Source of the DNA: Entophlyctis helioformis | Taxonomy: Eukaryota; Chytridiomycota; Chytridiomycetes; Chytridiales; Chytriomycetaceae | NCBI GenBank assembly: GCA_025526915.1 | Contig: JAHLKH010000430.1 | Location: forward strand, 1-12,886 | Direction: 5' to 3' | Length of the DNA: 12,886 nucleotides | Shown here: positions 960-12,886 of the stretch, one piece after another | Position numbering within the stretch: position 1 is the stretch's first letter | Layout: every line of letters starts with the position of its first letter | Position numbers and translations under genes: made by a program | The notes under the pieces: generated by a model | Told to the model about the DNA's origin: nothing | Database searches by the model: none | What the model saw: only the letters and a program-made list of their open reading frames with translations

Positions 960-1253
960 TGTTAGACCCTCACGTCCGCACCGCCACACGCGTCTTGGTG
1001 CACAGGCTGCTTGGCTTGTGAGTCATACCCGGCACAGCCACCTTCTAGAATTCCATCGAACTCTGGCCTGCCCGCGAGCTGAGGAACACCACAGAACCTT
1101 GAACCGCAGCGCCACTCCCTCTCCGGCTATAAATAGCCCTGCTCTCTCTTCTGCTGAATGAACTCCAGATCTGATCTCACGAGCTAGTCGCCTACGCCCC
1201 TTGCCCGGCCTGCCTCTCCCCTGCGGTCGATCTCGTGTCCAACACACAAGAGG
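960..1253 (+). mobile_element. 3' LTR of element 1, probably cut by insertion of element 3
   Basis: The LTR starts with TG just after the polypurine tract and contains a TATA box. It shows no A1/A2 tandem block, unlike every other LTR here. The LTR of element 3 begins at 1254 with no intervening DNA, so this LTR is either complete near 1248 (a CA dinucleotide) or truncated at agagg (1249-1253), which would be the left TSD of element 3. I favour truncation because the expected second half is missing. The right-hand remainder would lie outside the window. Confidence 0.65.
1128..1136 (+). promoter_or_regulatory. TATA box in the element 1 LTR
   Basis: TATAAATAG sits in a GC-rich LTR and is a canonical Pol II TATA element. 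Initiation would be expected near 1156-1160. Confidence 0.6.
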
Positions 1254-1261
1254 TGTGACGG

Positions 1262-1329
1262 CTGCTCGTACAGTGTCACTCAGCAATGTTGGTAGCGAAG
1301 TCACTTCATTGTGGATCTGGTGAACATAC
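1262..1329 (-). other. Candidate intron in R of LTR-D (68 nt)
   Basis: The sequence starts GTATGT, a perfect 5' splice-site consensus, immediately after block A1, which ends AGCAG. It ends with the AG of A2. A branch-like GTGAC or CTGAG lies 15-25 nt upstream of the AG. The whole unit is spacer plus second block. It carries ATG codons, while the blocks do not. Splicing is inferred from sequence only. Confidence 0.5.
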
Positions 1330-1399
1330 CTGCTCGTACAGTGTCACTCAGCAATGTTGGTAGCGAAGTGACTAGCACGAGCATGCAGGACGGGACCGC

Positions 1400-1406
1400 T
1401 TTTATA
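1400..1406 (-). promoter_or_regulatory. TATA box of LTR-D
   Basis: TATAAAA on the - strand. The first T lies 29 nt upstream of the 8-nt segment TGCTAGTC (1377-1370) that abuts block A1. That is the usual TATA-to-start spacing, and it independently places the RNA 5' end just before A1. Confidence 0.7.
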
Positions 1407-1526
1407 GAGGTCCCAGATCTGGCAGAAGCTTATTTGAGAGGTTCCAGAAAGTTCCCAGATGTGGCCGTGCACCACGTCAATGACGAGACTAACAGCGGAA
1501 CTTGGTAGTCGTACTGGCGCGCAACA

Positions 1527-1537
1527 TTCCTCCCGTC
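1527..1537 (-). other. Polypurine tract of element 3
   Basis: GACGGGAGGAA on the - strand lies between the pol stop (1540-1538) and the TGTTGCGC start of the LTR. Confidence 0.7.
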
Positions 1538-2193
1538 TTAGATGGAGGCACGTCCCTGTGCCGATTGCTCTGGGTTTGGACGCGCACGTTGGACAATGGG
1601 GATACCACGGTGATCGCGTTGCGGCCCTGTGGTTGATGTCGGTGCTGCTGGTGCCGTGATGCGTGGCGGAGCGGCTGCTGCTGCTGGAACTGGCATGAGC
1701 GGCTGGTTGGACGAACCTCCATAGAACACGTCCGTCTGCGGGCTGTAGTAGGGGGCGAGGTGGTCGCCGTTGACGAGATTCTCGAGCATGGATCCGTTGG
1801 CGCGCATCAGCCGGTACGTGTCGTTGGGGCAGACCTCCTGCACGATGTATGGTCCGGTCCAGGACAGCTCAAACTTGGTCTTGTCGTGGTGCTTCTGCTT
1901 GACGTACTCGCCCACGACAAACCGGTCTGCGCGCACCGTGTGCGCCGTGTTGTACTGCTCCTCCATGCATTTGGCCTGAGCCTGCGATCGCACGTACGCG
2001 GCCTGGCGTGCGAGACCGACCTCGTCGAGACTGCGGGCGGTCCAGGCGGCCATGTCCTGCCAGTCCTTGGGATCGTACTCGTGCGGCAGGCTGTCATCTC
2101 CGAGTAGGCGCGGCTCGACTCCAAAGAGCAAGTAGAACGGCGAGTAGCCCGTGACCTCATGGCGGCGCGTGCGCAGCGCGAGCAGGGCCTGCG
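1538..2193 (-). CDS. Element 3 pol, final segment: integrase C-terminus
   Basis: This is the end of the integrase and of the polyprotein, separated from the rest by element A. Visible features are an S-P-F-Y-L-L-F-G-V-E-P stretch typical of gypsy integrases after the catalytic core, a basic and charged linker, the GPY motif in SWTGPYIV, then NDTYRLMRANG and NGDHLAPYYS, which are also present in element 1. An Ala/Pro-rich tail of about 70 residues ends at TAA 1540-1538. No chromodomain is present. The frame enters at the TSD (2193-2189) and continues exactly from the segment ending at 10123 when one TSD copy is removed. The catalytic residues are on that other segment. Confidence 0.88.
2189..2193. 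repeat. TSD of element A, left copy (ctgcg)
   Basis: This 5-bp direct repeat flanks element A exactly. The partner is at 10123-10127. Five base pairs is the usual Ty3/gypsy TSD length. Confidence 0.93.
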
Positions 2194-2380
2194 TGTGAGG
2201 TGTATCGGTGGACTGGCAGATAATACTGCAGTAGGGCTCTTAGATTCATTGGTTACATGGAGCAGAGGGGGTTCGGGATCTACCTGCAGTAGGGCTCTTA
2301 GAGAGCAGCTGGGGAAGATGGCATTGCGCGTAGCAGGCAAATGGCAATGGCGGGTCGCGTGGCCGGTGCCGCGGCTTACA
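2194..2380 (-). repeat. LTR-A, 3' copy (187 bp)
   Basis: On the - strand it begins TGTAAGCC and ends CCTCACA. It appears identical to 9936-10122. It contains the 8-mer AGCTGCTC at 2310-2303, directly followed by block A1 (2302-2284). A 39-bp spacer starting GTAGAT follows, then the identical block A2 (2244-2226). No TATA box is seen. Confidence 0.94.
2226..2283 (-). other. Candidate intron in R of LTR-A, 3' copy (58 nt)
   Basis: It runs from GTAGAT, directly after A1 (...CTACTGCAG), to the AG ending A2. The same unit in the 5' LTR is 9968-10025. The branch site is weak (TCTAAG). The interval contains two ATGs (one is ATGTAA) that splicing would remove ahead of gag. Confidence 0.42.
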
Positions 2381-2745
2381 CCCCCCCTTGCCGAGACTCT
2401 CCTGGAGAGAAGGCCAGGCAGATGGTGAGGCATAAGAAGAAGCAGGTACCGAGATACGGGACACGCCAGGGGCAGGAGAGGATTTGGAGAGACGCGCACT
2501 ACGGCGAACTGCAGGTGCACGAGAGGGAGCCGGAGGGGAGGGAGCAGGAGTAGGAGCAGGGATAGGATCAGGTGCAGGAGCAGGAGCAGGAGCAGGTGTG
2601 GTAGCAGGAGCAGGAGTGGTAGCAGGGGTGGTCGGTGGGCAATTGTTGGGCGACTTGCGTTTCCTGGTGCGAGTGCGGTGGGGCGGGAGCGCGTGAGATG
2701 CCTTGAAGGCAGCCAAGAGATCGGGTGCGGTGTCTGCAAGCTCGT
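2246..2745 (-). CDS. Element A pol, last segment: end of chromodomain and Pro/Ala-rich tail
   Basis: This is the continuation of element A pol beyond the element B insertion. It opens with the last residues of the chromodomain (ELADTAPDLLAAFKAS). A basic stretch RTRTRKRK follows, then a low-complexity Pro/Ala/Thr region encoded by a GC-rich repeat at about 2550-2635, and a RRSARLSKS basic patch. The frame does not stop before the LTR. It crosses the polypurine tract and ends at about 2246, inside the 3' LTR, so the last 45 or so residues are LTR-encoded. Joined through one TSD copy, the frame is continuous with the segment ending at 4688. The tail has no recognised fold. Confidence 0.8.
2381..2390 (-). 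other. Polypurine tract of element A
   Basis: CAAGGGGGGG on the - strand is directly followed by the LTR start TGTAAG. It is also coding (see the pol tail). Confidence 0.85.
2741..2745. repeat. TSD of element B, left copy (ctcgt)
   Basis: Perfect 5-bp repeat partnered with 4688-4692. Removing element B and one copy restores the chromodomain frame. Confidence 0.93.
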
Positions 2746-2768
2746 TGTAACGGATGCTCGGTCGCGGT

Positions 2769-2801
2769 CACGTGATCCACGTGATCCACGTGACCCACGT
2801 G
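2769..2801 (+). promoter_or_regulatory. Array of four CACGTG E-boxes in U3 of LTR-B
   Basis: CACGTG occurs at 2769, 2778, 2787 and 2796, an exact 9-bp period. The array is repeated at 4443-4475 and in the solo LTR (11699-11731). CACGTG is the palindromic site of bHLH factors such as the Cbf1/Pho4 type. The likely role is an enhancer. LTR-C has a single copy. Confidence 0.6.
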
Positions 2802-2906
2802 ACCGGACAGACATTGTCGGGCCGCACCGGCCGCTCTGGTTTCCCCCGTTCTTGCAGTCGTCTGCCCGCCGTTCCCCTGCGTGCATACTCACTGCCCCGA
2901 GACCAG

Positions 2907-2981
2907 GTCTGTGCTGCCTCCCAATGAAGTAGTCGTCTGCCCGCCGTTCCCCTGCGTGCATACTCACTGCCCCGAGACCAG
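2907..2981 (+). other. Candidate intron in R of LTR-B, left copy (75 nt)
   Basis: It starts GTCTGT immediately after A1 and ends with the AG of A2. A branch-like TACTCAC lies about 20 nt upstream of that AG. Homologous units are 4581-4655 and, on the - strand, 11593-11519. The spacer carries CAATGAA. Confidence 0.5.
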
Positions 2982-3013
2982 CCGGCAAGCCCGTCTGGTG
3001 GCCCAGTACTACA

Positions 3014-3021
3014 GCAAGAAC
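3014..3021 (+). other. Self-complementary primer-binding site of element B
   Basis: GCAAGAAC directly after the LTR is the exact reverse complement of GTTCTTGC (2848-2855), the 8 nt before block A1. No TGG typical of a tRNA 3'-end site is present. This matches Tf1-type self-priming, in which the RNA 5' end is the primer. Confidence 0.7.
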
Positions 3022-3439
3022 CCAACTTTTTTTTCGGTCGGGGCAGCATTGGTGAGCTTGGCTGGACATCCTCGCCGCCTCTGCTGCCTCGGCTGGAACC
3101 AGGGCCTGCTGGCGGTCGGCAGTCTTGCCACCCAGGCCCTGCGGAGTTGCGCCTCGAGTCTCGCACACTGGACGTCCTTGTCTCAACGCTCCTGTGCTCT
3201 CGCGGCATCTGCTTGTCGACACTTGCCGCTGTGCACCAGCGCACTTTTTTTCATGCGTCTTGGTCAGCAGCTGGCAGTGGGCAGTGTCGTCATCCACCCA
3301 CCGGCTCTGGCATCCTATGCCTCTTTACAGCCGCCTCACACTCGCCTTCCGTCGCATGGTTTGATATCTGCCAGCATCAGCTCGCTCGCCAGCATCAGCT
3401 CCACCTGCTTGTCACCGCATCTGCTTCTGGATATTGTCT

Positions 3440-3578
3440 CCAGGCATGCTCTGTGCCTCCTGTGAGAGGAGTTGGGGCGGGATCCACAGCCGATCACCAC
3501 TTACACCCTCAACTGCACCGCTGCAACTTTCGTCAGCCGCCACAACCACGCCGATCAGTCCTGACCACATCTGGATCA
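3440..3578 (+). repeat. Diverged internal repeat of element B, copy 1
   Basis: It starts ccaggcatgctctgtgcctc and ends ggatcagc. It corresponds to 3864-4002, offset about 424-426 bp, with scattered substitutions and short indels. A GAGAGGAG...GGGATCC core is shared. Confidence 0.7.
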
Positions 3579-3863
3579 GCACGTCAGTATCGGCATTCGC
3601 TTCAGCACGGCACGGCCTGCATCTGCCACAGCTGCATTGTCCGCCATATCAACCACCACTGGATCGGCTTGTGCCTCGCTGCTTCTGCAGCACGATGTTC
3701 TCGTCGACGGGCGCGTTCATCACCTCGGCCTTGGCAGCATCAGCCGCCTCAGCCACCCAGCCGCCATTGGTCTCGGCATCAGCATCCATCGGCCACAGCC
3801 TGCAGACACCAGCCCCAGCACGTTGCACATCTGTAGCTCAGCATCAGCTCCTGGACCGGGTAT

Positions 3864-4002
3864 CCAGGCCATGCTCGGTGCCTCTTGCGAGAGGAGTCTG
3901 GGGTGGGATCCCTTTTGGATCGCCACTTGAACCCACACTGCGTCCCTGACCAGCCATCAGCCGCCACCCTACACCGTACGGCTCTGACCACATTCGGATC
4001 AG
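3864..4002 (+). repeat. Diverged internal repeat of element B, copy 2
   Basis: Partner of 3440-3578. It contains the same gagaggag, gtggctctgaccacat-like and ggatcagc landmarks in the same order. Confidence 0.7.
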
Positions 4003-4150
4003 CTTACACCAACACGGCCACGCACGTCAGCTCGGTCACCACCGGCACGATCTCGCAGCCGCTGTCGCCTTTCCATCCTGATCGCCGCACCATCCGGCTT
4101 GTCCACCTGTTCATGTGTCTGTTGACCATGTTCACCCTCTCGGCCCTGAT

Positions 4151-4267
4151 CTGTCCACCTCTCCACCTTTCCCTCTTCCATCCAATCCACCTCTCCATCT
4201 CTCCCCCCTCCATCCAATCCATCTCTCCATCTCTTCCCCTTCCATCCACTCCATCTCTCTCTCTCCT
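4151..4267 (+). repeat. Pyrimidine-rich imperfect tandem repeat
   Basis: Three or so imperfect copies of a unit of about 30 bp of the form tccatccaatccacctctcc, almost purely C/T on this strand. The glycine/glutamate/tryptophan-rich ORFs on the other strand are translations of this repeat. Confidence 0.75.
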
Positions 4268-4411
4268 TGTTGCTCTGTGCGCACGGTTCCCCGTCCTGTG
4301 TCCTTCGCGTCCATTGTTGCCCACACCTCTGCTTCTTGTGTGTGCAACGCCCATGCATCCTCTTAGTCGCTGTTCATCCACTCTTCTTTCTTATGAGTGG
4401 CTGTCTACGCT

Positions 4412-4419
4412 GGGGGGAG
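4412..4419 (+). other. Polypurine tract of element B
   Basis: GGGGGGAG directly precedes the right LTR. It is the same core as in element 1. Confidence 0.85.
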
Positions 4420-4687
4420 TGTAACGGATGCTCGGTCGCGGTCACGTGATCCACGTGATCCACGTGACCCACGTGACCGGACAGACATTGTCGGGCCGCA
4501 CCGGCCGCTCTGGTTTCCCCCGTTCTTGCAGTCGTCTGCCCGCCGTTCCCCTGCGTGCATACTCACTGCCCCGAGACCAGGTCTGTGCTGCCTCCCAATG
4601 AAGTAGTCGTCTGCCCGCCGTTCCCCTGCGTGCATACTCACTGCCCCGAGACCAGCCGGCAAGCCCGTCTGGTGGCCCAGTACTACA
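4420..4687 (+). repeat. LTR-B, right copy of element B (268 bp)
   Basis: It reads identical to 2746-3013. Its landmarks are shifted by 1,674: E-boxes 4443-4475, 8-mer 4522-4529, A1 4530-4580, candidate intron 4581-4655. Confidence 0.95.
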
Positions 4688-4692
4688 CTCGT
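4688..4692. repeat. TSD of element B, right copy (ctcgt)
   Basis: Partner of 2741-2745. Confidence 0.93.
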
Positions 4693-5746
4693 CTTCCGAT
4701 CGCCAGCAGTTTGCTTCGCTGCCATAGCCAGCGTAGGAGACCAGGAACTTGTGCTTCTTGCGGTCCGACTTGACATCCAGAATGGCGTCAATCTCCCAGA
4801 GCTTGTCGCCATCGTCAGTCTGATCCACAGGGCCAGGCTCAGCAGGGTGCGGTTGGTCTGGGAACGCGTCGGTAGGGCTGATGTGCGGCTTGAGCAGGCT
4901 GACATGGAACCAAGGGTGGCTGACGTGTAGCGACGGCGGCAGCTCAAGCTTGCAGTTGAGGTTGTCTAGCCGTGTGTCAATCTCAGTGATCGGAAAGGGA
5001 CCCAGCCACAGAGCGCGGGCCAGAGTGGGGCGTTGAGTGTCTGGCGACCAGTTGATGCCGTCGGCTGAAAGCATGACCATGTCGCCGACCTTGTAGGCTG
5101 GGGCGTCTCGTCGGCGCTTGTCAGCCTGTCGCTTCTGCATGGCCTGCGCGTGGGTGAGGTTGGTTGTGGCCGTCGCGCGTGCCGCAGCAAGAGAGGCGAC
5201 CAGGTCGCGGACAGAGCTCGGCGACGATGCCGGTGGCTCATGCGGGAACATGCGCGGCGAGAGAGCAAAGGCGAGATAGAACGGCGAGAACCCAGTGGAT
5301 GCACTGACCGACTCGTTGATGGCGGCGACGGCAGCCGGAACGAGCGACTCCCAGTTGGCGCCCGAGTAGTTGGCAAACTTGGACAGGATGGACTTGAGCG
5401 TGCGGATGGTGCGCTCCGACTGGCCGTCGGTCTGCTGGTGGCGAGCCGTGGACATCATCTGTGAGATACCGGCGGCAGAGCAGAGGCTGGTCCAAAAGTC
5501 CGAGCAGAACTTGCTGTCGCGGTCGGTGACGAGCGAGGTCGGCAGGCCCTTGCCGGCGAAGACCCAGCGGTTGAGGAACAGGCGAGCGAGCTGCTCGGCT
5601 GTGACGGTGCGTTTGCATGGGATGGCCTCGACAAGCTTTGTCAAACGGTCGACAATCACGAAAACGGCGTCGTTGCCCGTGTCGCTGGCTGGCGGACACA
5701 TCGCGAGGTCGCAGGCCACCGAGACAAACCGGTCGGCAGGGACGGG
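4688..5746 (-). CDS. Element A pol, second part: integrase core, GPF module and chromodomain
   Basis: This is the frame that continues element A integrase after the frameshift at 5744-5747. The catalytic D,D-35-E triad is intact: D in VACDLAM, D in VTDRDSKF and E in GQSERTIR, with the last two 35 residues apart. KVGDMVML and WLGPFPI (the GPY/F module) follow, then HVSHPWFHVSLLKPH, typical of chromoviruses. Next comes a chromodomain starting LWEIDAILDV with KFLVSYAGYG and CWRSEDE. Chromodomains direct integration to modified histones. The domain is interrupted after EDE by element B and finishes at 2745 onward. Part of a single polyprotein, so no own start is expected. Confidence 0.9.
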
Positions 5747-5747
5747 G
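5744..5747 (-). other. 1-nt frameshift in element A pol (C run)
   Basis: The - strand reads CTACCCCGTCCC. Upstream, the frame gives GLLHPLP and then turns to Arg/Pro-rich nonsense. Dropping one C gives LPVPADRFVSVACD, the expected integrase sequence. A homopolymer slip or a sequencing error is likelier than programmed frameshifting, since this is the middle of integrase. Confidence 0.8.
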
Positions 5748-8261
5748 TAGCGGATGGAGCAGGCCGGCCGGCGCCTGGGTCGACGAGTTGAAGCGCTGGC
5801 ATGTGTCGCACGAGGCAACATACAGCTTGACCATCGCTGGCAGGCCGGGCCACCAGTAGCGAGAGCGGATGCGGTTGAGCGTGCGGTTCGCGCCTTGGTG
5901 GCCAGCGCCAATTGGGTCGTGGTACATCGACAACAGATCGGTGCGCACTGGCCCATCAGGCACATAGATCAGGTCGTGGTGATACCAGACGCCATCAGTC
6001 TCGGTCATGGCTGCGGCAATGGCGCGGTCAGAAGGCGATGCGGATGACGGGTCGCTCTTCCACGCACGCACTTTGCACAGGAACGGGTCATCAGCCAGCA
6101 GCGGCTTGATGGACTCAGCCAGAGAGGAGGAGACTGTCGTCAATGCACTGACATCGACGTCAGACCGGCAGCGGCTGCACAAAGGGGCTATGGCCGGTAG
6201 GCGAGACAGCATGTCTGCCAGTTGGTTTGAGCCGCCTTGGACGTACTCAATGGTCGCGTCAAACTCCTGCAGGGCAATCACCCAGCGAGCCTGGCGAGGC
6301 GAAAGACGCGCCTGAGTAGGGATCCAGCGCAGTGCCTGGTGGTCGGTGTGGATCGTGAAGTGCTGACAAGCCAAGTAGTGCCGGTAGTGGTAGCACATCT
6401 CGACAATCGCCAGCAGCTCACGCTCGTGTGTGGGGTAGTTGCACTCGGCAGGCTTCAGCTTGCGCGAGTAGAACACCACAGGGTGCAGTTTGCCGTCGGG
6501 GTGGATCTGCCCAATCCAGCCGCCGATACCAAAGTTGGACGCGTCACAGAAGACGTGCGTCTCAAGCTTGGGCTCAAAGAAGCGCAAAACTGGAGCCTCT
6601 GTGATAGCTCGTAGCAACGTGTGGACCGCGTTCCATTGCTGAGGGCCCATGTGGAAGCGGGCGCCTTTGCGTAGGAGATCCGTGAGCGGCGCAGTGATGT
6701 TGGCAAAGTTGTGGATAAAGTCTTTGAGCCACACGCAATGCCCGAGGAACGTCTGGACGTCCTTGACGGTTTTCAACACTGGCGGCTTCTTCATGAGCTC
6801 CTTGAAGCGGTCCTGGATGGAGTAGCCATCGCCCAAAAGCAGATGACCGCAGAATTCGACGCGCGGGGTGAGGAAGTGGCACTTGGATGGCTTGAGGTAG
6901 AGATCGTTCTCCTCCAAGAGCTGAAAGACCATCTCGAGGTGCTGGAGGTGCTCAGCCTCCGTCTTGCTGTAGACCAGGATATCGTCCATGTACGCCACGA
7001 CACAGACGTCCAGCAGCTTGCCAAAGATGCGGTTCATCATGGCGTTGAATGTGGCGGGGCTGTTGGTCAGGCCAAACGGCAAGACACGGAACTGGAAGTG
7101 GCCGTAACGGGTCACAAACGCAGTCTTGTGCGCGTCATCAGGGTGCATACGGATGTTGTGGAACCCGTTGCGCAGGTCCAAGGATGTCATGAACTTGCAG
7201 CCGCGGGTGCGATCACGTAGGCTTGGGATGTCAGGCATGGTGGCATGGTCTTTGACGGTGATGTTGTTGAGACTGCGAAAGTCGATGCAGAGGCGCAAGC
7301 CACCATCCTTCTTTTTGGCAATCACCACAGCAGCGGCGTACGATGAGGTGGAGGGTTCCAGCATGTTATTCTGCAGGTACTCCTCGATGAAGGCTTTGAT
7401 GATGGCATGCTCCTCGTCCGTTCGCTTCTGATGGGCTCTGCGCTTGGGCACAGGCGCGCCTTCGATGGTGACGATCCGGTGGTTCTCAGGCCGGTCAGGC
7501 GGCAGTGAGGTTTGTGGACGGAACCGAGCTTGGTATCGTTTGACCAGTGGATGGATCACTTCTGGCCAAAGATCCAGCGGCAGATGGTCGAACATCTCAT
7601 CGTGTGGGTTGACGGGCGAGGTTGCAACAGATGCGATCAGACAGGCAAGGCACTTGGCTGGCGTGCACTCGTGGTCATGATCCTCTGCATTGCAGTCCTC
7701 GTCCGCGTCGTCCTCACGATCAGGGGAATCTACATCTGGGTCCGTTCCGGCAGGGTCGATGCGCGAGATCCATACATAGTCGTCCTGGTTGTCAAAGATG
7801 TCCTGGTACGGGACAATCTCGATGGGCGGTAGCTTGGAAGGCAATTTGGACGACGGATCAGGCGCGACGACCTTGAGGCAAGGTTCAGGGACCGGTGGGA
7901 CGACATTCCAACGGTGTGTCTGCGCGGTGTGCTTGTCACGAAACTCAAAGATGCGGTTGCCAATGTCGCCATGTGTGATGACGATTTCAGCGAACCACGG
8001 CGTGCCCAGAATAAAGTCCACGTTGATATCCGCCACGATAAAGGTCAGCTGGCGCGTGTAGTCGCCACAGGTGAACAGCGCGTTGATCGCACTGTTGACC
8101 AGCCGATTCTTGTTGTTGGCGAAGCGGACGTAGAACGGTTCAACTGGGTGGGCCTTGAGCTTGTGTTTGCTGACGCAGTCCTTTGAGATGACCAGGCATG
8201 ACGCGCCCGTGTCAAGGAGTCCTTGCATTGGGATGCCGTTCAGCGTAGCCTCGATCTCGCT
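5747..8261 (-). CDS. Element A pol, first part: protease, reverse transcriptase, RNase H, integrase N-terminus
   Basis: Residues are counted from the Met at 8228; the frame is open upstream to the solo LTR at 8261. The aspartic protease has LLDTGAS at residues 4-10 and FILGTPWF near 71-78. A linker rich in Asp/Glu follows. RT has RLCIDFRSLN, TSLDLRNGF, LPFGLTNSPATF and the catalytic YMDD at residues 413-416 (6992-6981). RNase H has FCDASNFGIGG, HERELLAI, HTDHQAL and NQLADMLSR. The integrase zinc finger has YHDPIGAGH and SCDTCQ (HHCC). Genuine coding ends near residue 827 at the frameshift; the frame stays open to 5238 but is a shadow. All catalytic residues I can check are present. Confidence 0.93.
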
Positions 8262-8525
8262 TGTCAGAGTTCCTGCTCGAGTGCGGCGAAGGCACAGGGA
8301 ACTGCAGGTTTGGCTGAGGCACAGACAAAAGGAAGAGGAGCTGTCAGGCGACAGTGTCTGTGGCAGGCAATTGAATGTGTATTCTAAGAAGTACCTGAGG
8401 CACAGACAAAAGGAAGAGGAGCTGTCAGGCGACAGTGTCTGTGGCAGGCAATTGAATAGAACAGCAAGGGGAAGGGAGAGTCGCGAGACACGGAATTGGA
8501 AAAGCCAACAGACAATAATCTAACA
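8262..8525 (-). mobile_element. Solo LTR-X (264 bp) between element A gag and protease
   Basis: On the - strand it runs TGTTAGATTA...CTCTGACA. It matches the element X LTR at 12379-12636 with many differences. It has GCTGTTCT at 8465-8458, then A1 8457-8395 (63 bp), an 18-bp spacer starting GTACTT (8394-8377), and A2 8376-8314, identical to A1. Flanks on the + strand are tcgct and ttgcg, so there is no convincing TSD. It may have arisen by recombination between LTRs of different insertions, with loss of intervening element A sequence. Confidence 0.87.
8314..8394 (-). other. Candidate intron in R of solo LTR-X (81 nt)
   Basis: It starts GTACTTCT right after A1 (...GCCTCAG) and ends with the AG of A2. 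It has a consensus branch site CTGAC followed by a pyrimidine tract before the AG, the most convincing 3' splice site in the set. Confidence 0.52.
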
Positions 8526-9820
8526 TTGCGTCTGTATGAGATCCCTGACTGGCTTTCGGCGACGGTTGGCGGTGTCGACTGGTGCACGACAGGCACAGGT
8601 GTCACTGGCGCAGGCGTCGCTGGCGCAGGTATTGGTGGCTCAGCCGCGACAGCTGGACCAGGCGCTGGTGGTGTGGGAGATGCCTGCACGGAGCCTGACG
8701 CCAAGCTGGTGTGCGATCGGAGGTTGATGCGTCCGCGGATGAACTTTGTGCGGCTGACACGCTTGGGGCGGTTGGCAGCTGCAGGGCGGGCGTAGTTGTA
8801 CGCCAGTGGCGAGAGCATCGGCACCATGGCCGCGACAATCGACTGCGCGAGATCGTTGGGGTCGGAGACGCCCTGCGGCGTTGGAGTTGTCGAGCCGACC
8901 GAGGCTGAGGGCTGGCGCTGATGCTGGTGTGCGAACGCCTGTAGCAGCGGCGCTGGTTGTGGCTGCGGCAGCGGCATGTGGCGATGCTGCAGCGCGGCGA
9001 GCCCGGCCGAGTCGGCCGATGGCGTCATTGATGGAGCAGACAGAGCAGTGGGGAGCGATCTAAAATCGCGCGATGGCAGTGAAGCTGGCGGGGCACTGGC
9101 TGCGACCCTGACTGGGATGGGTGCTGGGGCAGTGGTGGGGGCAGCGAGAGGTTGAGCGGCCAGTGCGGGAGTGTGTGAACCAGTCGGTGTAGCCAGAACA
9201 GACGGCCCAGCAGGGCTGGCAGACGCGGAAGAACGGCTGTCCAGCCACGAGCCAAGGAGGTTGGCAAAAGCAGCGCGGTCAGCATCGGAGGCTGAGTGGA
9301 AGGCTTCGACCAGCGAGAAGGAGGCAGCAGGGGCAGCTGCTGCGACCGAGGGCTGAGCGGCACCGTGGGCGGGTGCAGCGGCAATGGGCTGGATCTGGAT
9401 GGTCGAGAGCGTCTGGGTGAGGTCGTCCACATTGGCGTCCGAGTCTGACACGTTTTGGCTGGCGGCGAAATTGATGCCGTGCGATACTGGGTGCTCGAGA
9501 GACGGGGGCTGTTGCTGGGGCTGTTGCTGGTACTGGTGCTGTTGGTGGTGCAGCTGCTGTTGGTGGTGCAGCTGCGAATGGTCGACAATGTCGTCCGACG
9601 CTTCGAAAGCGTCGAACGACGCCTCCGACGCAGACGTAAATGAAACGTTACTGGACGTCGAGGCAGGGGACGGAGCGAGCATCGAGGCGGCAATGGCCGA
9701 CATCTCGATGGCCGAGTCAAAGCCTGGGGTGTGGACGAAGGCGCCTGGGAGGCCTCGAAGGGCGTTGGTAGGCGTCGACGTCGCTGGCTCTAAGGGTCGG
9801 TTGGTGTGCGAGGCCGACAT
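8526..9820 (-). CDS. Element A gag, N-terminal part, 3' end missing
   Basis: I take the start as the ATG at 9820-9818 (MSASHTNRPLEP), the first in-frame Met downstream of the primer-binding site. The frame is open upstream into the LTR as well. About 431 residues are visible. They are Ser/Ala/Pro-rich with a Gln/His tract (QQQLHHQQHQYQQQ), a basic patch (RPKRVSRTKFIRGRINLR) and a Pro/Ala-rich tail ending GISYRR. I do not see a capsid-like retrotransposon gag domain or a CCHC zinc knuckle. Either the family has a very divergent Gag, or that part was lost at the solo LTR-X junction. Assignment as gag rests on position between leader and protease. Confidence 0.7.
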
Positions 9821-9935
9821 GGCGAGGCCGCGGTCTTGGAAAACGCGCGGCAGCGGCCGAGTCGGCGGGACTGGTGGGTGGGACGAACCGGAGGCGGGAG
9901 CGGTGGTGGACAACTGTCCGAGAAGAGAGCTGCTC
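9821..9935 (-). other. 5' leader of element A with primer-binding site (9935-9928)
   Basis: The first 8 nt after the 5' LTR are GAGCAGCT, the reverse complement of AGCTGCTC at 10052-10045, the 8 nt directly before block A1. No tRNA-type TGG is present. This is consistent with Tf1-like self-priming. The remaining 100 or so nt are an untranslated leader, or coding if the LTR ATG is used. Confidence 0.65.
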
Positions 9936-10122
9936 TGTGAGGTGTATCGGTGGACTGGCAGATAATACTGCAGTAGGGCTCTTAGATTCATTGGTTACAT
10001 GGAGCAGAGGGGGTTCGGGATCTACCTGCAGTAGGGCTCTTAGAGAGCAGCTGGGGAAGATGGCATTGCGCGTAGCAGGCAAATGGCAATGGCGGGTCGC
10101 GTGGCCGGTGCCGCGGCTTACA
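9936..10122 (-). repeat. LTR-A, 5' copy (187 bp)
   Basis: It reads identical to 2194-2380. Its landmarks are the 8-mer 10052-10045, A1 10044-10026, the candidate intron 10025-9968 starting GTAGAT, and A2 ending at 9968. The ATG at 9991 in the spacer opens a frame that joins gag. Confidence 0.94.
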
Positions 10123-10127
10123 CTGCG
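10123..10127. repeat. TSD of element A, right copy (ctgcg)
   Basis: Partner of 2189-2193. Confidence 0.93.
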
Positions 10128-11082
10128 GCACGTACTTGTCCCAGCGCTCGGGCGATCCGGCGCACAGCTTGGTGAGAATGGCGTTCAGCGACCGGTGCAT
10201 GCGCTCGACGGCTCCATTCGTGCGTGGGTGATACGGCGTCGAGGGCAGGTGGTTGGTCGCTTGCAGCTTGAGATACTCGCGCAGGCCGTCATTGGTGAAC
10301 ACGTTGGCGCGATCCGTGATGATCTCCTGCGGTGCGCCGTACTGGCACAGGATCTCCTCGTAGATGAACTTGGCGGCGGTCGTGGCGTCGCGGTTGGGAT
10401 ACGCCTTGGCCACCACCCAGCGTGTGGCGTAGTCGATCGCGGTGAACAGCTGCGTGTTGCCGTCGGCCGTCGCAGGCAGATCCTGCACAATATCAACCCC
10501 CCATCTCTCAAAAGGCAGCGCGGCGGGCTCGAGCGGATGCAGCGGGTTGCGAACGGGGTTGATGGGCGCCTCATGCAGCTGACAGACCGTGCAGCGGCGC
10601 ACAAATTGCTGAACCTCGTGCTCCATGTTGGGCCACCAGAAACGCAAACGCAGCACTCCAATCAATGTCGCGGCGGCCATGTGGCCCATGGCGCGATGAT
10701 ACTTGTCCATGATGTGGTCGCGCTCGTACGACAGAATGAACGGCACTGTGCGGTTCTTACCATCCACGACCACCTTGCGGTGTAAGATGTCGTTCCGGAG
10801 CTCGAAAAGTCGGGCCTGCTGCGTAATGAGGGCTGTGTGGATGTCAGACAAGCCAGGTGGCAGCGTGTTGTTGATCTTGTACTGGATTACGTGCATGGGC
10901 CAGTCGCGTTCCGGATCAGCTTGTGGCGGGTTGGCCGTGATGTTGGTCTCGGGCTCGCCGGCATACAGCTGGGCGGCGTCCTGGCGCAGGGCATACGGAT
11001 CGGCATCGATGATGGGTACAGTTGGCTCGGGAAGGTCGGTACGGCGCGACAGAGCATCCGCGGGCTGCCATTTGCCAGGCGT
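10123..11082 (-). CDS. Element 3 pol segment: end of RNase H, integrase zinc finger and catalytic core
   Basis: It enters after solo LTR-C with GKWQPADALSRRT, which supplies the last RNase H aspartate (ADALSR). The integrase HHCC zinc finger follows: HRAMGH and RRCTVCQ. The D,D-35-E core is D in GVDIVQDL, D in ITDRANVF and E in NGAVERMH, the last two 35 residues apart. It stops at the element A insertion just after WDKYVPQ and resumes at 2193. The frame is open throughout. The Met at 10896 is internal, not a start. The core is closely related to element 1 (shared HPRTNGAVERMHR). Confidence 0.92.
11078..11082. repeat. TSD of solo LTR-C, left copy (ggcgt)
   Basis: Perfect partner at 11328-11332. 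Confidence 0.92.
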
Positions 11083-11327
11083 TGTAACTGTCCTCGTCGA
11101 GAGCGGCTGGCCGTCTGGTGGCAGAGGGGCAGTGAGTATACAGGCTTACGGCTGGATACAACTTCATTGAGACTCAGGCACAGACCTGGTGGCAGAGGGG
11201 CAGTGAGTATACAGGCTTACGGCTGGATACAACTACAACAACAGGGCCAAGCCAAGTCCGGGCGAGGCGCGTCCAGATCAATGCCAGCAGGTCACGTGAC
11301 CACGGGACTGCGGCGGCATCCGTTACA
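11083..11327 (-). mobile_element. Solo LTR-C (245 bp) in element 3 RNase H
   Basis: On the - strand it runs TGTAACGGATG...GTTACA with perfect ggcgt TSDs. It shares with LTR-B the first 11 bases, a GTCACGTGACC box, a TATACTCACTGCCCC stretch and a CCAG|GTCTGTGC junction, but most of the rest differs. Order: 8-mer GTTGTTGT (11242-11235), A1 11234-11186 (49 bp), 22-bp spacer (11185-11164), identical A2 11163-11115, and U5. Removing it restores RNase H. Confidence 0.92.
11115..11185 (-). other. Candidate intron in R of LTR-C (71 nt)
   Basis: It starts GTCTGTGC directly after A1 (...GCCACCAG) and ends with the AG of A2. The branch-like ACTCAC is placed as in LTR-B. The spacer contains CAATGAA. Confidence 0.5.
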
Positions 11328-11332
11328 GGCGT
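11328..11332. repeat. TSD of solo LTR-C, right copy (ggcgt)
   Basis: Partner of 11078-11082. Confidence 0.92.
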
Positions 11333-11486
11333 GTACTCGAGTAGGGCGCCGTAATGGTCAAACTCCAGTTGCCAGCCCCACTGGCGCGGTCCAGGCTTGT
11401 CAATACCCGACAACCACGTCAGCGGCTGGTGATCCGTGTGGACAATGGTCGGGATGCCATCGACGTAGCAGCGCCAAGTGCGCAAT
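11328..11486 (-). CDS. Element 3 pol segment: middle of RNase H
   Basis: A short piece of RNase H caught between two solo LTRs. It reads RTWRCYVDGIPTIVHTDHQP and LTWLSG, with the catalytic D of the HTDHQ motif, and ends LLEYTP at the LTR-C insertion. Its frame links exactly to the RT segment upstream and to GKWQPADALSRR downstream once each TSD is reduced to one copy. Confidence 0.9.
11482..11486. repeat. TSD of solo LTR-B, left copy (gcaat)
   Basis: Perfect partner at 11755-11759. Confidence 0.92.
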
Positions 11487-11754
11487 TGTAGTACTGGGCC
11501 GCCAGACGGACTTGCCGGCTGGTCTCGGGGCAGTGAGTAGGCACGCAGGGGAACGGCGGGCAGACGACTACTTCATTGGGAGGCAGCACAGACCTGGTCT
11601 CGGGGCAGTGAGTATGCACGCAGGGGAACGGCGGGCAGACGACTGCAAGAACGGGGGAAACCAGAGCGGCCGGTGCGGCCCGACAATGTCTGTCCGGTCA
11701 CGTGGGTCACGTGGATCACGTGGATCACGTGACCGCGACCGAGCATCCGTTACA
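11487..11754 (-). mobile_element. Solo LTR-B (268 bp) in element 3 RNase H
   Basis: Inverted copy of the element B LTR with the same length, flanked by perfect gcaat TSDs. I count three differences from the element B LTRs: two in U5 and one in A2 near 11539 (g for t). The matching base in A1 is unchanged, so that change probably came after insertion. Landmarks: E-boxes 11731-11699, 8-mer 11652-11645, A1 11644-11594, candidate intron 11593-11519. Confidence 0.94.
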
Positions 11755-11759
11755 GCAAT
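11755..11759. repeat. TSD of solo LTR-B, right copy (gcaat)
   Basis: Partner of 11482-11486. Confidence 0.92.
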
Positions 11760-12378
11760 GCCTGAATCACAGCCATAGCCTCACGCTCCGTGGCCGAGTA
11801 GTTCTGCTCGGCGGCTGATAGCTTCTGCGACAAAAACGCGATCGGTCGATGGCCCTGACCATGATCCTGTGAGAGCACACCACCTACAGCCTCCTTGCTG
11901 GCATCTGTCCAAATGTGCATCGGCTTAGTAAAGTCGGGGGCAGCACACACCGGGGCAGATGCGAGGGCGGCCTTGAGCTTCTCGAAAGCGGCAATCTCCT
12001 CGCGACCCATTACGAACGGCACATCCTTGCCCGTGAGACGATGAAGGGGGATGGCGATATGGCCGAAATTCTGTACAAACCGACGATAATAGTTGCACAA
12101 GCCTAAGAAGGATTGCAACTGAACGAGCGACTTGGGCACTGGCCAGCTGGTGATAGCCTCGACCTTGCGTGGGTCCGGCCGAACTCCTGCAGCCGAGACT
12201 AAGTGGCCACAGTACTCGACCTCATCGAGACCAAACTTGCATTTCTTGGCATTGGCAACTAGCCCGTACTTGGCTAGGCGCTCGAACACACGCGTGACGC
12301 GCTCACGAAGCTCCTGATCGTCGCGGGCATACACAAGAATGTCGTCGAGATAAACCACGCAGATGTTGTCGACCAGAC
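11755..12378 (-). CDS. Element 3 pol segment: reverse transcriptase C-terminal half and start of RNase H
   Basis: It enters at the element X boundary with LVDNICVVYLDD. The catalytic YLDD is at 12352-12341. RT landmarks follow: KCKFGLDEVEYCGHLVS, the thumb-region FLGLCNYYRRFVQNF, and FEKLKAALASAPV. RNase H begins with the catalytic D in IWTDASKEAVGG and E in TEREAMAV. It ends at QAL, where solo LTR-B begins. The frame is fully open. The fingers and N-terminal palm of RT, the protease and gag lie beyond element X outside the window. Confidence 0.92.
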
Positions 12379-12636
12379 TGTTAGATTATCGTCTGTTGGC
12401 TTTTCCAACTCTATGTCTCGCGTCTCTGCCTTTCCCTTGCTGTTCTATTCATTTGCCTGCCTCAGACGCTGTCGCCTGACAGCTCCTCTCCCTCTGTCTG
12501 TGTTGCAGGTACTTCTTACAATACATATTCATTTGCCTGCCTCAGACGCTGTCGCCTGACAGCTCCTCTCCCTCTGTCTGTGTTGCAGACCCGCAGTTCC
12601 CTGTGCCTTCGCTGCACTCGAGCAGGAACTCTGACA
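12379..12636 (+). repeat. LTR-X, 5' LTR of element X (258 bp)
   Basis: It runs TGTTAGATTA...CTCTGACA. It contains GCTGTTCT at 12439-12446, A1 12447-12508 (62 bp), an 18-bp spacer starting GTACTT (12509-12526), identical A2 12527-12588, and a 48-bp U5. Confidence 0.9.
12509..12588 (+). other. Candidate intron in R of LTR-X (80 nt)
   Basis: It starts GTACTTCT after A1 (...TGTTGCAG) and ends TTGCAG. CTGAC plus a long C/T tract precedes the AG. Its 3' 62 nt duplicate the upstream exon exactly. Confidence 0.52.
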
Positions 12637-12644
12637 AGAACAGC
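12637..12644 (+). other. Self-complementary primer-binding site of element X
   Basis: AGAACAGC directly after the LTR is the exact reverse complement of GCTGTTCT (12439-12446), which abuts block A1. The arrangement is the same as in elements A and B. Confidence 0.7.
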
Positions 12645-12725
12645 CCTAGAAACAGCAATCTCGCCGCTCGCGGCACCCGCCTGGCCCTCACATCCCTTCT
12701 GACATCCCCCTCGTCGCTCGCGACG

Positions 12726-12886
12726 CCTACTGGTCTTCCAGCCCCCACACTGCCCTCGTCGTCCTTCTCGTCGAGCTCAGTGCCTACCGGTTCTCCGGCC
12801 CTCTACACCGTTCTCAACGTCCTTCTTGTTGCGCTCGGCGTCCACTGGTCTTCCAGCCCCCACACTGCCCTCGTCGTCCTTCTCGT
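12726..12886 (+). repeat. Tandem repeat of about 57-58 bp in element X interior
   Basis: Nearly three copies start at 12726, 12783 and about 12841. The first and third share actggtcttccagcccccac exactly; the middle one is diverged. Pyrimidine-rich. 12645-12725 shows no start codon or recognisable gene. This is leader or early gag, not assignable here. Confidence 0.65.

Follow-up and report, generated by a model that had tools for sequence, protein, structure and literature searches.

An intron carried in the RNA of a retroelement is normally lost on reverse transcription, and this rule underlies the classic intron test for retrotransposition. The present report concerns contig JAHLKH010000430.1 of the chytrid Entophlyctis helioformis (12,886 bases; hereafter the window, meaning the whole stretch of DNA analysed), which is a nest of Ty3/gypsy-type elements with protease, reverse transcriptase (RT), RNase H and integrase domains. 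Nine long terminal repeats (LTRs) of these elements contain a unit composed of a short sequence (A1), a spacer beginning with GT and a second copy of A1 (A2), so that the spacer and A2 together have the form of a GT-AG intron whose 3' end duplicates the preceding exon. It is quite probable, judging from the sequence, that this predicted R-region intron is spliced out at the 5' end of the RNA, is retained at the 3' end with polyadenylation within or just past A2, and is rebuilt in each cycle when minus strong-stop complementary DNA (cDNA) of the form A1-U5 anneals to A2.

Related systems

Human immunodeficiency virus type 2 (HIV-2) and simian immunodeficiency virus (SIV) possess a functional intron within the R-U5 region of the LTR (PMC1766366). 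An initial sequence-only reading of the window knew of no described element that uses the device proposed here. Introns in R-U5 as such are known, while no description of an R-region or LTR intron ending in an exon copy, or of its regeneration by strand transfer, was found in the open-access literature. The exon copy and its regeneration appear to be new. The HIV-2/SIV LTR is reportedly maintained because unspliced RNA is packaged. Since the chytrid elements are Ty3/gypsy, the HIV-2/SIV intron is likely only analogous. The chytrid unit resembles it, by position only (predicted start to LTR end), in lying wholly within R-U5, and differs in its duplicated exon, which the available part of the HIV-2/SIV report does not describe at the 3' end of the leader intron (PMC1766366).

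In foamy virus, the major splice donor lies in R upstream of the poly(A) signal, and polyadenylation is suppressed at the 5' copy and allowed at the 3' copy; U1 small nuclear ribonucleoprotein at the donor silences the signal and RNA structure opens the 3' site (PMC3694450). As far as the accessible portion of that source goes, the chytrid unit is similar in having a donor in R before a poly(A)-type signal, and dissimilar in that both splice sites and the signal are in the LTR, together with an exon copy.

Tf1 and the sushi chromoviruses are self-priming, the 5' end of the RNA being complementary to the primer-binding site (PBS) next to the LTR, and no R intron is mentioned in the portion of the account at hand, unlike the chytrid families (PMC10085805). 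The self-primed chytrid families share with them this complementarity and a Ty3/gypsy pol; the integrase end of the A element gives a Tf2-1-like SH3 match (29.9 bits, cut-off 30). They differ, on the same partial account, in that the self-primer is 8 nucleotides (nt) long and the unit also occurs in families primed by transfer RNA (tRNA).

In intron gain through a duplicated segment, the duplicated stretch reportedly contains AGGT, and to our knowledge that model does not involve reverse transcription restoring the intron. Host-gene introns that arose by tandem duplication are described in the part of the source available (PMC4974935); they are like the chytrid unit in that splice sites come from a duplicated AGGT stretch, and unlike it in that they are not in an LTR. 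Ogre and EVADE are LTR retrotransposons with spliced RNAs, in which alternative splicing generates subgenomic RNAs, and the part of that work available describes no intron contained in R, unlike the chytrid unit (PMC12786077). Scans with RT and integrase pieces found no relatives in viral contigs.

The repeat unit in the window

In the nine LTRs, which were read directly and re-scanned, the order is 8-mer or start, A1, GT-spacer, A2 and U5. They belong to the five families recognized in the sequence-only reading (D, one copy; A, two; B, one; C, three; X, two), where eight copies had been counted; the repeat lengths, offsets and donors given there were upheld. The A repeat is 40 nt in D, 19 in A, 49 in B, 51 in C and 62-63 in X, and the corresponding spacer plus A2 offsets are 68, 58, 71, 75 and 80-81. 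The donors are GTATGT (D), GTAGAT (A), GTCTGT (B and C) and GTACTT (X). The features are as follows.

1254..1526, minus strand: D LTR, the 3' LTR of a minus-strand element, with TG...CA ends
1330..1369, minus strand: D exon A1, 40 nt (direct reading and re-scan)
1302..1329, minus strand: D spacer, donor GTATGT, with AATGAA starting 9 nt before A2
1262..1301, minus strand: D A2, same as A1, terminating in GAGCAG
2194..2380, minus strand: 3' LTR of the A element; A1 2284-2302, spacer 2245-2283, A2 2226-2244, self-primer 8-mer 2303-2310
9936..10122, minus strand: 5' LTR of the A element; A1 10026-10044, spacer 9987-10025, A2 9968-9986, self-primer 8-mer 10045-10052
2189-2193 and 10123-10127: target duplication of the A element, CTGCG (plus strand)
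9928..9935, minus strand: PBS of the A element, GAGCAGCT, exact complement of the 8-mer AGCTGCTC
2746..3013, plus strand: 5' LTR of the C element; 8-mer 2848-2855, A1 2856-2906, spacer 2907-2930, A2 2931-2981
3014..3021, plus strand: PBS of the C element, GCAAGAAC, exact complement of the 8-mer GTTCTTGC
4420..4687, plus strand: 3' LTR of the C element; 8-mer 4522-4529, A1 4530-4580, spacer 4581-4604, A2 4605-4655
2741-2745 and 4688-4692: target duplication of the C element, CTCGT
8262..8525, minus strand: X LTR, haplotype b; 8-mer 8458-8465, A1 8395-8457, spacer 8377-8394 (AATACA), A2 8314-8376
11083..11327, minus strand: B solo LTR with target duplication ACGCC; 8-mer 11235-11242, A1 11186-11234, spacer 11164-11185, A2 11115-11163
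11487..11754, minus strand: C solo LTR; 8-mer 11645-11652, A1 11594-11644, spacer 11570-11593, A2 11519-11569 (a single A1/A2 mismatch)
12379..12636, plus strand: X LTR, haplotype a, a 5' LTR; 8-mer 12439-12446, A1 12447-12508, spacer 12509-12526 (AATACA), A2 12527-12588
12637..12644, plus strand: PBS of the X element, AGAACAGC, exact complement of the 8-mer GCTGTTCT

The unit had been thought to occur in every visible LTR. This is not so: a tenth LTR at about 960-1250, just beyond the span first described, is without such a repeat (its longest internal direct repeat is 8 nt), and of the LTR families seen in the genome, five (L, together with those of loci L012/L013/L017, L022, L025 and L027/L028) have no internal direct repeat above 6-8 nt.

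Proposed cycle

Transcription would start at the 8-mer in self-primed families and at A1 in tRNA-primed families. Near the cap, the GT-AG intron (spacer and A2) would be spliced out, taking away the 5' poly(A) signal. At the 3' end, the identical hexamer would be used before the acceptor acts, and a poly(A) tail would be added within A2 or just beyond it; this copy, being far from the cap, would be left unspliced. Minus strong-stop cDNA made from the spliced RNA would consist of A-U5 and would anneal to A2 of the 3' R, and its extension through the spacer, A1 and U3 would produce a new LTR that regains the intron and in which A2 equals A1. Annealing to A1 instead would give an intron-less LTR that lacks the hexamer and would be a poor parent. 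The likely purpose concerns the poly(A) signal, which, when inside R, must be ignored in its 5' copy: a donor just upstream of the hexamer, together with splicing, would have this effect.

The basis for the proposal is the order of the parts, the repeat edges, the identity of A1 and A2, the complementarity of self-primer and PBS, the position of the hexamer, concerted evolution, and the existence of intron-less LTRs with a single A. From these we infer the start of transcription, splicing, polyadenylation within or just past A2, and strand transfer to A2. Rebuilding of the intron by U5-A strong-stop cDNA from spliced RNA was already the core of the sequence-only reading and is still the best fit, given the homogenisation of A1 and A2 and the match between the left edge of A and the predicted strong-stop end; the need for self-priming has been dropped, and the poly(A)-type hexamer near the start of A2, which had been overlooked, has been added to a scheme otherwise kept.

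Right edge and distribution of the unit

The A1/spacer/A2 observation is confirmed as real and as spread through the genome. Among the loci scanned, the unit is present in ten LTR families, namely A, B, C, D and X in the window and E, F, G, H and I elsewhere, family H being known from one copy. The survey was partial: 20 of 132 integrase hits were fetched, chosen for variety, and for family B the best 40 of 108 candidates were scored as matches without being read, as were most D, I and G matches. The ten families provide 14 unit variants; in every one, CAG closes A, GT opens the spacer and the acceptor is CAG. The predicted intron thus has GT...AG ends at the exon-intron boundary in 14/14 variants, as a spliceosomal intron would.

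Exact direct repeats of at least 16 nt in these loci number 181, and 63 of them have an AG/GT edge (the slash marks the repeat boundary) on one strand. Such an edge is found in 61/67 repeats within LTR units versus 2/114 elsewhere; the latter two sit in similar tandem arrays of loci L010 and L011. Of the six repeats in LTR units with a different edge, at least two are units split by an internal change (window 11541-11569 and L016 2510-2530). This count is partly circular because unit copies were collected by requiring AG/GT, and the edge test was repeated without circularity on 17 LTRs recognized solely by being paired long repeats. Nine of these contain an exact internal repeat of at least 12 nt, all nine with AG/GT, and the other eight have no internal repeat above 8 nt. 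The contention that the edge is not random is thereby borne out (9/9 repeat-bearing LTRs), and a chance origin was rejected on both counts. The A sequences themselves differ widely between families yet are not all independent. In comparisons with 300 shuffles, no shuffle reached the score of the B-C and G-I pairs, while the likeness of E-G and E-I is weak (3 and 6 shuffles) and that of C-H and C-I marginal (8 and 7).

Left edge and priming

In A, B, C, C', C'', F and X, A1 is immediately preceded by an 8-mer whose exact complement is the PBS; for family B, the PBS (ACAACAAC) is known from another copy (L061). For family G, the position of the edge of A was used to predict the 8-mer AGCTGTCG at a time when just 3 nt of the PBS were known; the full PBS, CGACAGCT, was then found, and its remaining five bases agreed with the prediction. 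Complementarity extends over 8/8 nt in A, B, C, F, G and X, so that in these families the RNA 5' end, itself a predicted position, would be complementary to the PBS as in Tf1. Families E and I and two D-type copies have a PBS containing TGGTAGCAC, which we take to be of tRNA type, no tRNA gene having been matched to it. Self-priming is therefore not found in every unit-bearing family and is not required for the unit, and dependence of the unit on it was rejected.

A TATA-like box lies 37 nt before the start of A1 in D and I and 35 nt before it in E, which are tRNA primed. In the self-primed family F, the box is 43-45 nt before A1, that is, 35-37 nt before the 8-mer. The comparison rests on these four families, since the other six show no TATA-like box within 80 nt. 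The predicted starts are pyrimidine/purine in 14/14 variants (with the H 8-mer assumed). The left edge of A is thus predicted to coincide with the stopping point of strong-stop synthesis in both priming modes, which is either the RNA 5' end or a position 8 nt inward after cutting of the self-primer. This coincidence is the strongest single reason to take A2 as a cDNA copy of A1. In the predicted folding of six leaders, 8-mer:PBS pairing is equal or better after splicing in 6/6, a result that shorter loops alone favour; the folding covered the central 8-mer:PBS duplex of the Tf1-type three-duplex "pretzel" only.

Concerted evolution and intron-less copies

Family X has four main A haplotypes that are 4-9 edits apart, C has three (6-9 edits), D has two (5 edits), and B and G have two each (2 edits). 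The subfamily edits are present in both A1 and A2. The two copies are exactly the same in 19 of 21 parsed X copies (a set that includes LTR pairs from single elements and excludes L043, whose unit carries small deletions), and the other two differ by one private base. Single-base private differences between A1 and A2 were likewise seen in copies of C, C'', D, B' and I; the B' copy (L044) has subfamily changes common to A1 and A2 and one private base that differs. Both haplotype b and haplotype c of X are found next to two types of U5. Since U5 adjoins A2, this indicates that A2 tracks A1 and not its neighbour. Homogenisation of this kind would be expected if A2 is rewritten from A1 via an A1-U5 template and would not be expected under ordinary R-R transfer of unspliced RNA.

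LTRs with a single A occur as well. Seven intron-less X LTRs with an exact A/U5 junction were read (L010, L051-L054 and two in L055); four of them show a target duplication, and a PBS is present in one. Three more were inferred from overlapping match pieces; X matches spanning the whole query number 30, of which 22 were read, and two partial matches (C187 and C68) were left unclassified. Three of 22 I copies are intron-less; the flanks of two coincide, so these may represent a single insertion. One intron-less D-like copy was read and has a tRNA-type PBS; a second match breaks off at the identical query position, where A1 ends. In L052 (C58:137150-137500), the PBS lies immediately after an intron-less X LTR, which makes it likely that a complete element with such an LTR was inserted. 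In L055, an intron-less X LTR has an A with an altered 3' part (GGTCCTGTGTCGGTCGCAG) that is still joined to U5 right after CAG. The intron-less copies fit annealing of A-U5 strong-stop cDNA to A1.

These copies also bear on an explanation that needs no splicing, in which R holds A1 and A2 as a tandem repeat that is kept alike by unequal exchange or RT slippage through one- and three-copy forms, the CAG/GT edges being inherited from an ancestral repeat. Single-A LTRs exist, retroviral repeats are prone to slippage, and the A sequences of some families are related, so edges could be partly inherited. However, exchange should yield three-A copies as often as one-A copies, and none was found among the loci scanned, on which ground a plain minisatellite was also rejected. 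Families with dissimilar A share the CAG/GT right edge, and on the left their A starts where strong-stop synthesis is predicted to end; U5 reassorts beside A2 while A2 follows A1. A tandem repeat without splicing is thus an unlikely source of the unit.

The poly(A)-type hexamer

The sequence AATGAA, replaced by AATACA in X and by AATAAA in the I copy L022, starts 4-9 nt before A2 in 14/14 variants, and its final one or two bases are the first bases of A2 in E, I, B and C'. Ten whole LTRs were scanned for AATGAA, AATACA and AATAAA, and one occurs once per LTR, at that site only. Two host 3' ends inspected have AATGAA and AATACA. If the hexamer is the poly(A) signal, the RNA would end 10-30 nt further on, inside A2 or, where A2 is short, near its end, before the acceptor can act. 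This would explain both the unspliced 3' copy and the cost of intron loss.

The LTR of family L (window 960-1250; L023) has a TATA sequence, TATAAATA, with AATGAA starting 29 nt after TATA, and no R intron. Its hexamer precedes the expected start, which would place the poly(A)-type signal in U3. Viruses with a poly(A) signal in U3 need no 5' suppression, according to the part of the foamy virus report available (PMC3694450). The pattern suggests that the unit and a hexamer in R occur together.

The order of donor and hexamer is also what would be seen if the intron were real and served only to silence the 5' poly(A) site, the packaged RNA being unspliced and the identity of A1 and A2 having another cause, such as selection on strand-transfer annealing. 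The donor is upstream of the hexamer in the predicted R, the order given for foamy virus in the accessible part of that report (PMC3694450), and unspliced RNA would also replicate by normal R-R transfer. Silencing alone leaves unexplained the subfamily changes of A in both copies and the exactness with which the left edge meets the predicted strong-stop end, and is as improbable as a tandem repeat without splicing. It is more improbable still that A1 and A2 are repeated structural or protein-binding motifs (for packaging or dimerisation) with no tie to splicing; R-region repeats could bind Gag or form hairpins, but the motif varies widely among families while the edges and the hexamer position are constant.

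Candidate splice signals and points against the proposed cycle

A loose branch-like motif, YTNAY, is found 12-30 nt from the intron end in B, C, E, F, G, I and X, a count made without a chance control. Four host introns, two in actin and two in actin-like genes, bounded by eye, have the donors GTAAGT, GTGAGT, GTAAGC and GTATGT. The actin-like gene in L030 matches actin-5 of E. helioformis at 336/336 residues (30-365) once a 34-residue segment, in which the reading runs across an intron, is set aside. A gap in an actin-family gene in L063 was considered as a further host intron, proved unclear and was dropped.

Several observations weigh against splicing and regeneration of the unit. Beyond GT, the donors of several variants are weak (GTTCGG, GTGCCT and GTACCC), and YTNAY is absent in family A and, in D and H, comes no nearer to the intron end than 57-59 nt, again without a chance control. 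Intron-less LTRs are no proof of splicing because the A/U5 splice product is the same as the DNA of A1-A2 recombination. If the RNA ends inside A2, A1 offers strong-stop cDNA a longer match than A2 and intron loss should be common; in family X, with 30 whole-query matches versus 10 intron-less copies, loss is indeed not rare. In family F, where A2 is 17 nt, polyadenylation might fall beyond A2. The hexamer set was picked after the sequences had been read. Five LTR families manage without the unit, the survey covered one genome, and the unit-bearing families are not countable as separate inventions because some A sequences are related (B with C, G with I and, weakly, E with G and I).

Other features of the window

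The Pfam domains Asp_protease_2, RVT_1, RT_RNaseH and Integrase_H2C2 occur in this order at 5238-8519 on the minus strand, followed downstream by an rve match at 4691-5767 (minus strand) that scores at its cut-off. The order protease, RT, RNase H, integrase is that of Ty3/gypsy LTR retrotransposons, as are the TG...CA LTRs with short target duplications. The duplications are of 5 bp in the A, B and C insertions and in several X copies. The LTR of family F seemingly terminates in TA, unlike TG...CA. Four more full-length copies of the D LTR, with 98-99% identity, were found.

The elements are nested (window 1254-12386), the A element lying inside the D integrase region and X, B and C LTRs inside A and D. 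The C element (2746-4687) has identical LTRs and the target duplication CTCGT and lies inside the 3' part of the A element; at 1.9 kb, it is of insufficient length for the usual pol genes. A short way downstream of the X 5' LTR, near-repeats recur at a 115-bp step (12702-12886), and comparable arrays are present in L010.

Significance

With somewhat less confidence than the cycle itself, we favour a broader reading of these LTRs, in which an intron would be removed by splicing and reinstalled by reverse transcription in every cycle. The copy of A1 would be both the acceptor and the landing site for strong-stop cDNA, and the LTR would act as a switch that splices at the 5' end and polyadenylates at the 3' end. 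Such an arrangement would be shared by about ten LTR families of one fungus, across self-priming and tRNA priming, and would leave a DNA signature findable in any genome. If demonstrated, regeneration of the intron would be new in principle, and this chytrid genome has many elements whose terminal repeats look built to break the rule of intron loss. If the proposal is true, it solves how an LTR distinguishes its 5' from its 3' poly(A) signal, by a route not found described for LTR elements. The strong-stop end and the splice junction would then be visible directly in DNA, and a signature readable from DNA alone, in which both repeat edges are set by the strong-stop template, could be sought in other genomes.

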